A stretch of 56,957 bases of DNA from Candidatus Hydrogenedentota bacterium. Lineage in GTDB: Bacteria > Hydrogenedentota > Hydrogenedentia > Hydrogenedentales > CAITNO01. Below are positions 4,777-55,745 of this stretch, in pieces. The translations under genes and the position numbers were made by a program. Under the pieces are notes generated by a model. It was given only the letters and a program-made list of their open reading frames with translations, searched no databases and was not told the DNA's origin. Numbering within the stretch: position 1 is the stretch's first letter; each line of letters opens with the position of its first letter. Location of the stretch: the NCBI GenBank assembly GCA_012730105.1, contig JAAYBJ010000036.1, positions 1-56,957 on the forward strand, written 5' to 3'.

Positions 4777-5535
4777 TCAATCAAGTTTTTTTATGAAGAT
4801 ATTCCGAAACTGTACCAACGAAGGCGGACCGGCCCATACGCCATCCTTCTTCGCCCCGTGATGTTGAAGCGCAATAGGTCCTGACTCCGGAATTCCGGGT
4901 AGTTCGGCGTTATCAAGGACAGTCTTGCCGTTGAGTTCCACCGTCAACCTGTTGCCTTTCATGGTAATGACAAAGCGGTTCCACTGACCGATATCATTGT
5001 CGGCGTTTATTTTCGGCGTTACCCCGGCACGCACTTCGGGTGGCATGTTCTGGTCCATACGATATCCATACACTTCACCGGACCCTACCGGCCAGCACCA
5101 GATGTTGATCTGGGCCTTGGACGTGCCGCGGACATAAATGCCTGAATCCGAATCGGGCACCACTATTGTTATGAGATTGCCGTCCGCGTCCAGCTTATGA
5201 CTGCCGTCCGGTTTGACGATCGGCACATTTGGATTGAGAAAGGGAGTTTCCTTAATGCGCCAGTCCAGCTGCAGAACGAAATCGCCATATTCTTCTTCCG
5301 TCCACAGGGATTTGTCGCCGGCAGCCTCACTCAACGCGTCATAGTCAATCACCCCGTCCACCACACGCCAATGCCCGTTGTCCCCTTCCGGCACTTTCCA
5401 GTTGTTAAAATCCGTGCCGTTGAATAAAACAGAGAATCCTTCCGGAGGCTCGACCGACCCTGCCCACCCGCTCAACGCCACCAGACCCGCTATAATCATT
5501 ACAGCAAACCCGCGCCTTGGAAGCCACATATTCAC
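4777..5535 (-). CDS. Secreted DUF1080 (3-keto-disaccharide hydrolase family) protein
   Basis: 252 residues. The start is a GTG at 5535, nine bases after GGAG; the in-frame ATG two codons later has poorer spacing. A signal peptide (MIIAGLVALSGWAGS) is followed by one concanavalin-like jelly-roll domain. It shows the family hallmarks FSVLFNGTDFNNWKV, then DFVLQLDWRI, SGIYVRG, NRFVITMKGNRLTVELNG and a C-terminal GPIALQHHG. DUF1080 proteins in gut Bacteroides hydrolyse glycosides that an oxidoreductase has first converted to 3-keto sugars. That function is plausible here because Tat-exported Gfo/Idh/MocA enzymes occur in the same window, the nearest at 6807-8183, but the substrate cannot be read from sequence. 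The gene precedes the macroglobulin gene on the same strand with a 158-base gap and no visible strong terminator. Confidence 0.85.
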   Translation of the reverse strand: MNMWLPRRGFAVMIIAGLVALSGWAGSVEPPEGFSVLFNGTDFNNWKVPEGDNGHWRVVDGVIDYDALSEAAGDKSLWTEEEYGDFVLQLDWRIKETPFLNPNVPIVKPDGSHKLDADGNLITIVVPDSDSGIYVRGTSKAQINIWCWPVGSGEVYGYRMDQNMPPEVRAGVTPKINADNDIGQWNRFVITMKGNRLTVELNGKTVLDNAELPGIPESGPIALQHHGAKKDGVWAGPPSLVQFRNIFIKKLD

Positions 5536-5795: not shown

Positions 5796-6746
5796 ATGAA
5801 ACGTCGTGAGTTTATAGGCACACTTGCTGGTTCCGCCGCAATGTTAACAGCAGTTCCGACCGCACGCCCGGAAGATGCGGGCGGAGCGCTCCCGAAACGC
5901 CCCCTGGGCACGACTGGCCTGTCGCTGTCCGTCATTGGTTTCAGCGGCCTGGTCGCCCGGGACAGCAGTCCCGAGGCGGCGGACCGTATCGTGGGCGAGT
6001 CGCTCGAAAAGGGCGTCAATTTTTTTGACGCCGCCGCCTCATACGGCAATTCGGAGGAAATGCTTGCGCCGATCCTTCGCCCGCACAGAAAGGACATTAT
6101 ATTAAGTTCAAAGACGCGGGAGCGCACCCGGGAAGGCGCCGAAAGAGATTTCAGCCGCTCCTGTGAGATTTACAGCACGGACTATTTCGATCTGTACCTT
6201 GTCCACGGGATTCAAGATGTCGCCCGTGACGTGGACGCGGCATTTTCCGCCGGCGGGGTCATGGAATGGGCGTTGGAAAAGCGGCAGGCGGGCGGCATCC
6301 ATTTCCTAGGCTTTTCCGCGCATTCCACGGAAGCGGCCCTGGCCGCGCTCGACCGCCACCCGTTCGATTTCTTCTATTTCCCCATCAGCTATGTGCCGTA
6401 TTTAAAGGCGGATTTCGGACCGGCAGTGCTGGCCAAAGCATCTGAGAAGAGTGTGCCCTGTGTTTCTTTGAAATCACTGGCACGGCAACGCTGGCCCGAA
6501 GGCTCCTCAAAATCGGATCGTTGCGCAAAATGCTGGTATCAGCCCATTGAAGACGCCGCAGAGGCATCCCTTGCCATTCGCTGGGCGTTGAGTCAACAGG
6601 TTGTAAGCATCCTGCCGCCCGGCGAAGAACAGTACTACCGCATGGCCCTGACGCTGAGCGGCAATCTTTCCCCCATCACACCGGAAGAAACAGAACGGTT
6701 GAGAACGCTGGCCGCGGACATGCTGCCCCTGTTTCCCAGGGGATAA
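5796..6746 (+). CDS. Tat-exported aldo/keto reductase family protein
   Basis: 316 residues. The ATG at 5796 follows GGAGAAACAACC; an in-frame upstream ATG at 5754 has no ribosome binding site and would bury the signal. The N-terminus MKRREFIGTLAGSAAML is a twin-arginine signal. The body is an aldo/keto reductase TIM barrel: RPLGTTGLSLSVIGFSG, then GVNFFDAAASYGNSEEML with the conserved Asp and Tyr, a Lys in ILSSKTRER, and YFDLYLVHGI carrying the family His. Near the C-terminus, SDRCAKCWYQPIEDA has a CxxC pair, and SLAIRWALSQQVVSILPP is the usual cofactor-side helix. Export of a nicotinamide enzyme through Tat fits pre-loading with cofactor. The substrate is unknown, probably a sugar or aldehyde. 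It diverges from DUF1080 and converges on the GH109-type gene. Confidence 0.85.
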   Translation: MKRREFIGTLAGSAAMLTAVPTARPEDAGGALPKRPLGTTGLSLSVIGFSGLVARDSSPEAADRIVGESLEKGVNFFDAAASYGNSEEMLAPILRPHRKDIILSSKTRERTREGAERDFSRSCEIYSTDYFDLYLVHGIQDVARDVDAAFSAGGVMEWALEKRQAGGIHFLGFSAHSTEAALAALDRHPFDFFYFPISYVPYLKADFGPAVLAKASEKSVPCVSLKSLARQRWPEGSSKSDRCAKCWYQPIEDAAEASLAIRWALSQQVVSILPPGEEQYYRMALTLSGNLSPITPEETERLRTLAADMLPLFPRG

Positions 6747-6752
6747 TTCATA

Positions 6753-6788
6753 GGACGGATCGGTCCGATCTGACGGATCCGACAGGTT
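6753..6788. repeat. Degenerate GTCYGAC-type intergenic repeat, copy 1
   Basis: The 60-base gap between two convergent genes is filled by GGTCCGATCTGACGGATCCG and flanking copies of the same core (GTCCGAT at 6763, ATCTGAC at 6768, ATCCGAC at 6777). CGGATC at 6756 and GATCCG at 6776 can also pair as a hairpin. It resembles the cleaner 10-bp-period arrays at 22286 and 55679 but its spacing is irregular. Confidence 0.45.
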
Positions 6789-8381: not shown

Positions 8382-8409
8382 GCGGCCGGACCTTGTCAGG
8401 CCCGGCCGC
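8382..8409 (-). terminator. GC-rich hairpin downstream of the PhoPQ-related gene
   Basis: GCGGCCGG and CCGGCCGC form an 11-bp stem (one G-U on the minus transcript) around a TGACAA loop, 20 bases past the stop at 8430. The following TTT is short, so it is a weak intrinsic terminator or a 3'-end-protecting hairpin. GCCGGAC at 8385 and GTCAGGC at 8395 match the 10-bp repeat family seen elsewhere in the window. Confidence 0.5.
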
Positions 8410-21574: not shown

Positions 21575-22261
21575 ATGCAACACAAGAAGGGCATGGCCAT
21601 GCAAAAACGCGCCCGAAGCGTGGTATTAAAGCACACAAAACAAGCCCCGGCCCGAAGGGTTCGTGCCGGATACAAAGCCACCATCACCAAACAAGTCTGG
21701 AAACCCGGCACCATGCTGTTCCCGCTGCCGGTGGTCATGATCACTTCCGCGGACAAAAGCGGCAAGCCCAACATCTGTACCGTAGCCTGGACGGGCACGG
21801 TATGCACCGACCCGCCCATGCTCTCCATTTCCCTGCGCAAGGAACGGTATTCCCACAGCCTGATCAGCGCCTCCCGGGAATTCGTCGTGAATGTGCCCTC
21901 GGTAAAGGAAATCAGGCTGACGGATTACTGCGGGGTGGTATCCGGCCGTGATGTGGACAAGTTCGAAAAGACCGGCCTGACCCCGGCCCCTTCTTCCGCA
22001 GTCAAAACACCCCTGATCCTGGAATGCCCGGTGAACCTGGAATGCAAAGTAAAAAAGACACTCGAGTTAGGATCGCACACCATGTTCGTTGCTGTAGTCG
22101 TCGCGGTCCAGGTAAACGCCGACCTGCTGACACCTTCCGGACGGCTGGCCTTGGAGAAAGCCGGCCTGGCCGCGTTTGTTCATGGAGGATATTACGAGAT
22201 CGGCAAAAAACTGGGATTTTTCGGATATTCAGTGCAGAAAAAGAAACCAGGCAGAAAATAG
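21575..22261 (+). CDS. Flavin reductase-like (FMN-binding split-barrel) protein
   Basis: 228 residues. The ATG at 21575 lies nine bases after AGAGGG; a longer frame begins at 21527. A basic N-terminal tail of about 40 residues (many Lys and Arg) precedes the PF01613-type split barrel: FPLPVVMITSADKSGKPNICTVAWTG, LSISLRKERYSHSLI, REFVVNVPS, DYCGVVSGRDVDKFEKTGL and LECKVKKTLELGSHTMFVAVV. These proteins bind FMN and reduce it with NAD(P)H, or act as stand-alone flavoproteins. No monooxygenase partner is nearby. The gene ends in a 10-bp-periodic repeat. Confidence 0.85.
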   Translation: MQHKKGMAMQKRARSVVLKHTKQAPARRVRAGYKATITKQVWKPGTMLFPLPVVMITSADKSGKPNICTVAWTGTVCTDPPMLSISLRKERYSHSLISASREFVVNVPSVKEIRLTDYCGVVSGRDVDKFEKTGLTPAPSSAVKTPLILECPVNLECKVKKTLELGSHTMFVAVVVAVQVNADLLTPSGRLALEKAGLAAFVHGGYYEIGKKLGFFGYSVQKKKPGRK

Positions 22262-22285: not shown

Positions 22286-22326
22286 GTCGGACCTTGTCAG
22301 ACCAAGTCGGACTGAGTCAGACCGAC
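22286..22326. repeat. 10-bp-period GTCRGAC array, copy 2
   Basis: GTCGGAC at 22286, GTCAGAC at 22296, GTCGGAC at 22306 and GTCAGAC at 22316, each followed by a three-base spacer; the period is exactly 10 and G/A alternates at the fourth base. It lies in the 103-base gap between convergent stops. Confidence 0.8.
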
Positions 22327-22364: not shown

Positions 22365-23705
22365 TTACTTGCCGAGAACCGTCAGCGCCAGCGCGTCGGT
22401 AATCAACGGTTCCGCACCAGGTTCCACCCAACACCAGGATTCGTCATTATACCCTTCGGCGGAAGCGATTGCCGTGGGTATATAGCCCGGGGCACATTCA
22501 CCAAAACCCGCCGTGACCACCGGGGCGTCCGGGCTCATACCCTGGGCTGTGATCTGATACTGCACGAAGGATTCGCCGGGCAGGATGAGAAATTTTGCCT
22601 TGCCGAAATCCACCACGGGCACGTCAATGGGCTGGCCCGCATCCACACGCTTGCGATAACTGAGCGCCATGGCGGCAAGATTGCGGGTAAAGGTTTTCAC
22701 GGAAGCATCCGCCAGGGTCGCCCGCGCGTCCGCTTCGGAATACCCGCCGAAACTTTTCGGAACAAGGTTCAGCGGTGCCACACGCAGGGTTGCCTGTTCC
22801 AGGGGATAACGCTGTGTGTTCTCCCAGGCTTTCACCATGCCCTGGTACATCTTATCGGCAAGGACCGGCCGGTTCGCCGGATCGCCGTCATTGAACTTGC
22901 CCGCCGTGGTATCACCGCTGCACCCGGTGAAATACATCTGGAACACCTCCGGCAATTCCGCCTGCCGGCGGGCGCGGGCCATACCCACGAAATCGGCGGA
23001 CACGCCGCCCTTGCCATAGTAACTCATGGGATGGGTGGAATAGGCGCTCAGCGCCGCCAGGGGGGTGTCGCCGTCCCAGAAACTCAGCGTTTTCAGGTAC
23101 GGGTCAATAATGCCTTCAGGCAGCGCCTGCAATGCCGGGTCTTTGGTGGCGCTACCGCGCCCATAAGAAACAGTGCCGTCCGGCAGCACGATGCGCCGGT
23201 TGGAGGTCACACCTTCCACCTTACCGATACCAATGCCGTAATGAGTCACAGGTTGGGGTGTTTTCAAGGCTTCTTTCATGGCGGCAACGACCCGGTCCAC
23301 GCACTGCCTTGCGAAGGGCACATCGCACAGGGATTTTTCCAGGCCGACCGCATCGAGAAGCCGCTGCGCCTCGTAGTCCACCACCGGGGCGTCATGCTGA
23401 TGCACACTGGCGAGAAGCACCCGTTCCGGCGTAGTGCCCGCGGCTTCCGCCAAGGCGGTACGCCAGTGGTCGTAGGCATCGTTGCGGATTTCACACCAGT
23501 CCACGGTCGCAAATACCAGCGGCTTCTCCGCGCCCAGCAGCACCACCCCATGGGCATACAGGGGGTCCACCACTTCCGTTGCGGGAGACACCCCGCCGCC
23601 CATACAGGCATGGCCGAGAGGAATGGTGACGTCTTCACGGAACGTGGCCAGTTGATAAGGAGCGGACAACACGCATACTGCGGCGAGCAGGGATGGGACG
23701 AACAT
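22365..23705 (-). CDS. Secreted neutral ceramidase-like / DUF-type amidohydrolase
   Basis: 446 residues; ATG at 23705 after AAAGGACAGTCC. A short signal peptide (MFVPSLLAAVCVLSA) is followed by a domain like the N-terminal catalytic part of neutral/alkaline ceramidases: VTIPLGHACMGGG, VLLASVHQHDAPVVDYEA, AALSAYSTHPMSYYG with candidate zinc His residues, and MYFTGCSGDTTAGKFNDG. True neutral ceramidases are longer with an extra immunoglobulin-like domain, so the substrate need not be ceramide. This family is frequent in planctomycete-like genomes and mostly uncharacterised. A second, lipoprotein member lies at 46762. It is transcribed alone. Confidence 0.72.
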   Translation of the reverse strand: MFVPSLLAAVCVLSAPYQLATFREDVTIPLGHACMGGGVSPATEVVDPLYAHGVVLLGAEKPLVFATVDWCEIRNDAYDHWRTALAEAAGTTPERVLLASVHQHDAPVVDYEAQRLLDAVGLEKSLCDVPFARQCVDRVVAAMKEALKTPQPVTHYGIGIGKVEGVTSNRRIVLPDGTVSYGRGSATKDPALQALPEGIIDPYLKTLSFWDGDTPLAALSAYSTHPMSYYGKGGVSADFVGMARARRQAELPEVFQMYFTGCSGDTTAGKFNDGDPANRPVLADKMYQGMVKAWENTQRYPLEQATLRVAPLNLVPKSFGGYSEADARATLADASVKTFTRNLAAMALSYRKRVDAGQPIDVPVVDFGKAKFLILPGESFVQYQITAQGMSPDAPVVTAGFGECAPGYIPTAIASAEGYNDESWCWVEPGAEPLITDALALTVLGK

Positions 23706-54318: not shown

Positions 54319-55592
54319 ATGAAAAGTATCACGAAGTAAACCGCCGCGCCTTCCTGGGACACACGGTGCTGGCGGGCGCGGTGGCGGCAGGTCTGGCGGC
54401 CATGCCGAAGCGGCATGTATTAGCCGCAAATGACAAATTGGGCGTTGCCGTCATCGGCTGCGGCGGACGCGGCAACAGTCACCTGGAAACATTAAAACAC
54501 ATCGCGGAGGCCGACAAGAGCATCGAGATTGTCGCCGTGTGCGATGTGTACCGGCCCCGGTTAAACAAGGCGGCTGAACGCTACGGCGTCCCGAAGGCTT
54601 ATATGGATCACCGCGAGCTGCTGGCGGACCCGGCGGTGGACCTGGTAACCATCGCCACGCCGGATCATATCCACGGCTACCAGGCGCTTGACGCCATCGC
54701 GGCCGGCAAGGACGTATACTGTGAGAAACCGGTCACCCACTGGCGCCAGTTCGAACTCACCAAAAAACTGGCCAAGGAAGTGGCCGCCTCCGGACGGGTC
54801 TTCCAGTGCGGCACCCAGGGCATGAGCGACTCCGCCTGGAAACAAATCGGGCAGCTGGTGCGCGAAGGCAAAATCGGGCAGCCGATTCATGCCGAATGCG
54901 GTTATTTTCGCGTAGGCGACTGGGGCGAGGCGGGCATGCCGATCGACGACCCGAACGCGCAACCCGGGCCAGACCTCAACTGGGAGGCCTTCCTGGGCGA
55001 CTCTCCGAAACGCGATTTCGACGTGAGCCGTTTCTTCCGCTGGCGCATGTACGAGGACTACGCGGGCGGGCCCTGCACCGACCTGTTCCCCCACATTCTG
55101 ACACCGGTCATGCACATGATGAACGCGAAGCTGCCGTCGGTCGCCGTGGCCACGGGCGGCATGTACCGCTATACGGAACGGGAGGTGCCCGACACCTTCA
55201 ACATGCTCGTGGACTTCCCGGAAAAATTCACCATTGCCGTGCTCGGCACCCAGGGCAATGACTACCAGGCCACCGAAGAACGCGGTTCCGGCGGGCGCAT
55301 TCCCGTTATCCGGGGTTGGGACGGCACGCTGACGGTCAAGAATAATGAAATCGTCTTCATTCCGAACCGGGGCTCGGATGCGAAGGCGGAAAACATCCCC
55401 ATCGGGCGTCAGGAAAACCTGTTACACCACTTCCAGGAACTCATCGACTGCAGCAAGGCGGGGGATCCGAACACCAGCAGCCCGATGGAACTTGCCTACC
55501 ATGTGCAGACCGCGCTGATCATGTCGTTCCTTTCCCTGCGCGGAGGGAAGGCGGTGCGCTTCGACCATGCGAATGAAGCGCTGATCGTGTAA
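54315..55592 (+). CDS. Tat-exported Gfo/Idh/MocA-family oxidoreductase (operon with GH99)
   Basis: 425 residues. The start overlaps the DUF6807 stop by four bases and has AAAGGAGCATGCGTC upstream. The Tat signal NRRAFLGHTVLAGAVAAGL leads to LGVAVIGCGGRGNSHLETL, DLVTIATPDHIHGYQALDAIAAG, KDVYCEKPVTHWRQFELTKKLA and RFFRWRMYEDYAGGPCTDLFPHILTPV. These are the NAD-binding, EKP and His/Asp regions of the family. Together with the upstream GH99 and DUF6807 proteins it forms a three-gene exported unit, with a clear terminator downstream. The substrate is probably a sugar released or presented by GH99; this is inference. Confidence 0.9.
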   Translation: MNEKYHEVNRRAFLGHTVLAGAVAAGLAAMPKRHVLAANDKLGVAVIGCGGRGNSHLETLKHIAEADKSIEIVAVCDVYRPRLNKAAERYGVPKAYMDHRELLADPAVDLVTIATPDHIHGYQALDAIAAGKDVYCEKPVTHWRQFELTKKLAKEVAASGRVFQCGTQGMSDSAWKQIGQLVREGKIGQPIHAECGYFRVGDWGEAGMPIDDPNAQPGPDLNWEAFLGDSPKRDFDVSRFFRWRMYEDYAGGPCTDLFPHILTPVMHMMNAKLPSVAVATGGMYRYTEREVPDTFNMLVDFPEKFTIAVLGTQGNDYQATEERGSGGRIPVIRGWDGTLTVKNNEIVFIPNRGSDAKAENIPIGRQENLLHHFQELIDCSKAGDPNTSSPMELAYHVQTALIMSFLSLRGGKAVRFDHANEALIV

Positions 55593-55616
55593 GTAACATA
55601 AAAGATGCAGTCTTTC

Positions 55617-55652
55617 ACGCCTGTGAGGTTTCGAAAGCCTCACAGGCGTTTT
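55617..55652 (+). terminator. Rho-independent terminator of the GH99 operon
   Basis: ACGCCTGTGAGG at 55617 pairs perfectly with CCTCACAGGCGT at 55638 over a 9-base loop, ending in TTTT. Confidence 0.9.
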
Positions 55653-55678
55653 GCTGAGGAAAGGACTTTATCTGGCAG

Positions 55679-55745
55679 GTCTGACCGGGTCCGACGGGGT
55701 CTGACAGAATCCGACGAGGTCCGACACAGTGCGACCTTATCCTAC
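55679..55745. repeat. 10-bp-period GTCYGAC array, copy 3
   Basis: Seven units at 55679, 55689, 55699, 55709, 55719, 55729 and 55739: GTCTGAC, GTCCGAC, GTCTGAC, ATCCGAC, GTCCGAC, GTGCGAC and ATCCTAC, each with a three-base spacer. It lies just after the operon terminator and before the next gene. Reverse-complement units (GTCRGAC) make up copy 2 at 22286. Confidence 0.85.

Follow-up and report, generated by a model that had tools for sequence, protein, structure and literature searches.

The two GTCNGAC arrays of the window, by which the whole analysed stretch of 56,957 nucleotides from a Candidatus Hydrogenedentota genome (G000) is meant, are gene-less, dispersed copies of arrays that flank a gene elsewhere in the same genome. 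They are probably the dispersed flank copies of a small family of mobile elements, whose arrangement is REPIN/RAYT-like but built on a non-transposase, S23-like oligomer recognising a private repeat. The association between gene and arrays is strong, and both properties of the repeat were shown to follow the protein: its period (7-8 or 9-10 bp) goes with the protein subfamily, its motif with the protein lineage.

Repeat arrays in the window

The arrays of the window and the features next to them are as follows.

6754..6785, no strand assigned: 9-bp array of GATCNGNC, which belongs to another family and has its exact core at 6758-6779
8382..8409, + strand: lone GC-rich stem-loop (fold z = -1.9), no array
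22259..22261, + strand: stop codon of a gene on the + strand, 25 bp ahead of the 22286 array
22286..22322, - strand: four perfect GTCNGAC units at 10-bp spacing, with pyrimidine centres on the - strand; dispersed copy without a gene
22365..22367, - strand: stop codon of the convergent gene on the - strand, 43 bp past the 22286 array
55590..55592, + strand: stop codon ending the + strand gene that precedes the 55679 array
55679..55735, + strand: GTCNGAC 10-bp array, six units of which four are perfect, with pyrimidine centres on the + strand; dispersed copy without a gene

The exact 10-bp period that the preliminary description had reported for the arrays at 22286 and 55679 was borne out, with four perfect units in each. 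In the former, units start at 22286, 22296, 22306 and 22316, and the + strand reads GTCGGAC/GTCAGAC, the GTCYGAC form thus lying on the - strand. The latter contains a unit with one mismatch at 55709 and a decayed one at 55729, and a further decayed unit extends to about 55745. Both arrays are located downstream of + strand genes, yet they have opposite polarity to each other. Between the stop codon at 55590..55592 and the 55679 array, a terminator-like stem-loop occupies positions 55616-55653. In the window as a whole, the pattern TCNGAC-N4-TCNGAC (at most one mismatch) yielded 17 matches, as opposed to 3.15 +/- 1.83 in shuffled sequences, none of 100 shuffles reaching 17.

The repeat family itself is real, but the preliminary description had merged two families, of 10-bp and 9-bp period, and added a hairpin. 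Its third site, at 6753, belongs to the 9-bp family, the exact core (6758-6779) reading GATCGGTCC GATCTGACG GATC, and the supposed degenerate fourth copy at 8385 is the lone stem-loop listed above. The single 10-bp family was split into GTCNGAC-10 and GATCNGNC-9, the genome-wide matches of which are given below. Within one array of G000 the centre base is mostly all purine or all pyrimidine, whereas the 3-nt spacers vary; since the spacers differ between units while the core is fixed, simple slippage does not explain the arrays. An Rfam scan of the whole window gave no match, and with a 7-bp core and 3-bp spacers the arrays are unlike CRISPR arrays, which have repeats of 23-47 bp and unique spacers of similar length.

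Dispersal and placement in the genome

Scanning G000 for three GTCNGAC units at 10-bp spacing (at most two mismatches) returned 60 forward matches and none of the reversed control pattern. Likewise, the GATCNGNC-9 (GATC-9) family gave 43 matches against none in the control, and a dispersed GTCCNY-9 motif 67+66 matches against 1+5; many of the GTCC-type arrays form inverted pairs. The arrays mostly prefer sites just 3' of stop codons, in agreement with the placement at gene 3' ends that had been proposed. Among 22 fetched arrays, a small and incomplete sample of G000 whose surroundings were annotated with a rough codon-usage gene caller, 19 are intergenic, compared with 14% of all bases; eight lie in convergent gaps, which make up 12% of the intergenic bases (p = 0.001), and all eight arrays in tandem gaps are closer to the upstream stop than to the downstream start (p = 0.004).

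The cognate gene and its protein

Both a matching protein family and corresponding arrays in related genomes, for which the preliminary description had recommended looking, were found. At locus L132 on contig C69 of G000, GTCNGAC-10 arrays at 5319-5375 and 6069-6145 bracket one gene; the 3' array reaches into the part of the gene that encodes the C terminus, where the repeats are translated as GRTKSDHVGQGRTASD. Three Bacteroidales loci picked by DNA pattern alone (L048, L075 and L080) display the same two-array layout around a homologous gene with 38-39% identity. The protein belongs to TIGR04258 (NCBIfam, four helix bundle suffix), with 65.5 bits for the C69 gene and 82.9 for L048 at a curated cut-off of 40. 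Matches to TIGR02436 (S23, 23S rRNA intervening-sequence protein) reach 26.6 and 29.1 bits (cut-off 24), while those to PF05635 (23.8 and 28.5 bits) stay below the cut-off of 33.8. A Pfam and NCBIfam scan of these two cognate proteins detected four-helix-bundle families only and no nuclease or transposase domain. The TIGR04258 gene of the GATCNGNC-9 family is located at G000:C112.

TIGR04258 is present in 26 of 40 relatives but in none of 14 control genomes, with eight copies in G000. All 18 genomes of Bacteroidota and the PVC group that were probed on the strength of their arrays contain a TIGR04258 match, 16 of them above the cut-off, whereas seven genomes with solitary VNTR-like matches lack one; the actinobacterial, Geobacter, Kuenenia and similar pattern matches were discarded as probable chance VNTRs. 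Phages were likewise dismissed as carriers, only two stretches lying in viral contigs. Structurally, two solved S23 structures, 2gsc, a reported homopentamer (PMC4990558), and 2rld, match the TIGR02436 protein of L229. The AF2 model of the L048 protein (pLDDT 83, pTM 0.75) has the same two structures as top matches, with a TM score of at most 0.83 normalised to 2rld_E and E > 0.001; a PDB sequence search with the TIGR04258 alignment gave no match.

Linkage of genes, arrays and motifs

A flanking array accompanies 59 of the 72 TIGR04258 genes examined, and 31 carry arrays on both flanks. For 48 TIGR02436-only genes drawn from G000, Bacteroidales and plasmids the corresponding figures are 41 and 27, in comparison to 9 and 0 for 64 unselected control genes. 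The period in TIGR04258 flanks is 9 bp in 72 cases, 10 in 13, 8 in 3 and 11 in 2 (9 or 10 in 85 of 90), while 66 of 68 TIGR02436 flanks have a period of 7 or 8 bp. The arrays are usually direct in TIGR04258 and usually inverted in TIGR02436. The earlier notion that a period near one helical turn places every core on the same DNA face does not hold as a general rule, because close TIGR04258 relatives use 9, 10, 8 and 11 bp and the TIGR02436 parent family 7 or 8; as close relatives differ in repeat length, it is the protein subfamily, not the helix, that the period tracks.

The two flanks of one gene share their motif, the median similarity being 7.0-7.5 against -1.6 and -2.5 for swapped pairs. 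Flank motifs of TIGR04258 genes include TATAGGWCC (L160), GTCCAC (L162), GTCCAT (L163), GTCCTTT (L164), GTCAAT (L171), GATCSGWCS (L159) and GTCNGAC (L132). Mapped on the protein tree, 12 motif classes require 13 changes compared with a shuffled mean of 35 and a minimum of 31, with 6 of 60 rows unclassified; since the classes were judged visually on each array consensus with the tree already known, bias may have been introduced. GTCNGAC occurs in two separate clades, PVC/Hydrogenedentota and Bacteroidales, and hence its shared descent is not proven.

Several loci deserve separate mention. The GTCAAT arrays of L171 (1028-1110, G003) form a perfect inverted hairpin including the spacers and adjoin the gene, and an 11-bp array, TCTTGCCCGCG, near the TIGR04258 gene of L334 (1436-1510, G024) is unlike the usual motif types. 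Verrucomicrobia WAS_Bin_30 carries very long homogeneous arrays (L016, L029 and L093), some mixing 9- and 10-bp units, with recurring flanks such as AATCATTCAT.

The prediction that arrays accompany their gene was tested with GATC arrays: seven of the eight genomes that carry a GATC-type gene contain them, compared with 8 of 32 in which no such gene was found (p = 0.002). The exceptions, in which arrays are present although no cognate gene was detected, are G002, G003, G012, G015, G024, G025, G031 and G036; G024 has 42 GATC matches, though no GATC-type gene was found in it. GTCNGAC-10 arrays were also observed in G002, G003 and G010, MAGs of 82-88% completeness in which no GTCNGAC-type gene was found; G003 (same genus) and G010 (same family) are Hydrogenedentota, as their arrays coincide with those of L106 and L103. 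From G002, G003, G010 and G024 it follows that arrays can outlive or lack their gene, or that the gene is unassembled.

Occupied and empty sites

On cyanobacterial plasmids, orthologous sites differ in whether they carry a TIGR02436 gene together with its inverted heptamers. Occupied L278 corresponds to empty L322, L323 and L331, L272 to L324-L326, L277 and L332 to L327 and L328, and L273, between nrdB and nrdA, to L330. At L333 the same three-gene operon as at L278 is found, but there the insertion separates the next pair of genes; L329 has gene-less arrays of the GGGAAC/GTTCCC type, as at L277, at the L277 site. The insertions at L278, L272 and L277 start at or a few bases from stop codons, and insertion boundaries match the arrays with deviations of between a few and some tens of bases; target duplications are inconsistent and suggested only for L278. 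The inverted heptamer arrays that bracket the genes at L273, L277, L278 and L272 are exemplified by AGTAGGG / TCCCTAC. In L271, L274 and L280, an S23-type gene resides within CRISPR operons, in the cas6-cas4 and cas10-cmr3 gaps.

Since empty as well as occupied plasmid sites exist for the heptamer version, the heptamer element moves. Mobility was shown in this manner for the 7-bp TIGR02436 relatives only, and the GTCNGAC arrays presumably move as well. The orthologous gap in G001 is devoid of the window array, although the intergenic region is too diverged for clean boundaries.

Proposed mechanism

The only constant gene of such an element would encode an S23/IVP-like four-helix-bundle protein, here of the TIGR04258 "suffix" subfamily, and each protein lineage would possess a private motif that flanks its own gene and is scattered in addition, namely GTCNGAC-10 (G000:C69) and GATCNGNC-9 (G000:C112). 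We infer that the protein forms an oligomer, as its S23 relatives do, and recognises its own repeats with one subunit or dimer per unit, and that bound arrays are then copied or moved with or without the gene. Because the protein showed no nuclease or transposase domain, the DNA chemistry would have to be supplied by host replication or repair or by a partner enzyme, e.g. a reverse transcriptase, as in the case of the related Avd. As the arrays are mostly direct in one subfamily and mostly inverted in the other, a single mechanism may not cover both.

Alternative explanations

The four-helix-bundle protein could instead bind the arrays for autoregulation or nucleoid organisation, the dispersed arrays being functional host sites. 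The conservation of arrays as ordered units with variable spacers, the specificity of the motif for each gene and the extragenic location all suit this reading, and an ordered protein array, as originally envisaged, is compatible with the evidence. The arrays, however, belong to what looks like a mobile-element family, and not demonstrably to nucleoid organisation. Their presence is sporadic within genus and family, the orthologous gap of G001 has none, relatives of the gene are inserted in cas, nrd and conjugation operons, and one genome holds several unrelated motif families. A host function of this kind is therefore considered unlikely.

A role at the RNA level, with transcribed arrays that fold and, like the intervening sequences (IVS) of 23S rRNA, are processed (e.g. 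by RNase III) or shield the 3' ends of mRNAs, appears more doubtful still. It gains some appeal from the naming of the protein family after IVS ORFs, from the Coxiella IVS with its inverted ends and tandem heptamers before the S23p ORF (PMC4990558), and from the frequency of inverted pairs among 7-bp and GTCC-type arrays. However, folding of the arrays was no better than that of shuffles (z = -1.0, -1.25, +0.65 and -0.55), TIGR04258 flanks are mostly direct instead of inverted, and with respect to the genes upstream of them the two window arrays point in opposite directions, which also speaks against the mRNA 3' protection and special RNA structure considered in the preliminary description. 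Plain replication-slippage microsatellites devoid of a protein partner, whose linkage to the gene would reflect coincidence or base-composition bias, are highly improbable. The homogeneous arrays of Verrucomicrobia WAS_Bin_30 and Lentisphaeria UBA1407 do resemble expanded VNTRs; yet in G000 the spacers differ between units of fixed core, arrays on both flanks distinguish the genes of both families from the controls, and the motif tracks the protein tree. Slippage moreover fails to account for the matching motifs on a gene's two flanks and is strongly disfavoured.

Relation to known systems

Reading the arrays as flank copies of a mobile element places them close to REPIN/RAYT systems, in which a gene has short repeats of its own on either side, these repeats are also dispersed extragenically without the gene, and several independent families per genome as well as inverted pairs occur (PMC3116915). 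Gene-specific repeats that both flank the gene and are dispersed extragenically were indeed found here. On the contrary, the protein is a four-helix bundle without a detected transposase domain, no Y1 (HUH) tyrosine transposase was found in the two cognate proteins scanned, and the units are head-to-tail repeats of 7-10 bp instead of palindromes of 20-40 bp. Lacking the transposase, the system is functionally REPIN/RAYT-like, yet no member of REPIN/RAYT.

The 23S rRNA IVS shares the protein superfamily (TIGR02436/PF05635), and tandem heptamers beside one S23p ORF were described for the Coxiella IVS without being generalised (PMC4990558). Here, on the other hand, arrays lie between protein genes rather than in an rRNA gene, consistent with the missing Rfam match, they occur on both sides of the gene, and dispersed copies consist of arrays only. 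Short tandem repeats of the STRR type and the GGGAATC heptamers of Xanthomonas and Nostoc likewise form dispersed extragenic heptamer arrays, and the parts consulted of the paper on the latter name no source for the repeats (PMC4692102). Cyanobacterial S23-type genes are themselves flanked by heptamers, and TIGR02436 relatives have 7-bp units, whereas the window system has units of 9-10 bp (10 or 9 in its arrays) and a protein with the suffix domain. Finally, Avd of diversity-generating retroelements is a structurally related four-helix-bundle protein (PMC10053308), but an unsystematic look beside the genes examined revealed no reverse transcriptase, template or variable repeat.

Significance

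The elements were found here in Hydrogenedentota, Planctomycetota, Verrucomicrobiota/Lentisphaerae, Bacteroidota and Cyanobacteria. They may well constitute an unrecognised class of bacterial mobile elements, in which an S23-like gene is the only constant gene, private short tandem arrays serve as ends, the period follows the subfamily and the motif the lineage, and from which STRR-type repeats would originate. The comment that NCBI attaches to TIGR04258 may refer to repeats. The open-access literature searched on the motif, on TIGR04258 and on S23 with tandem repeats yielded no description of the gene-array association, and we could not find S23-like elements with private repeats of this kind described there.

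S23-type genes within CRISPR operons could cause false "CRISPR-associated" calls. For the S23/IVP proteins (TIGR02436 and TIGR04258), which are widespread but of unknown role, the results provide a hypothesis of function and a candidate maker of dispersed short tandem repeats. To our knowledge, the origin of STRR-type repeats has so far been unexplained, and S23-like elements may be the source of the cyanobacterial STRR heptamers. The natural pairs of protein and motif, with at least 12 motif classes here, would offer a good system for studying the evolution of DNA recognition, and if no catalytic partner exists, the elements would represent DNA mobility without a known transposase.
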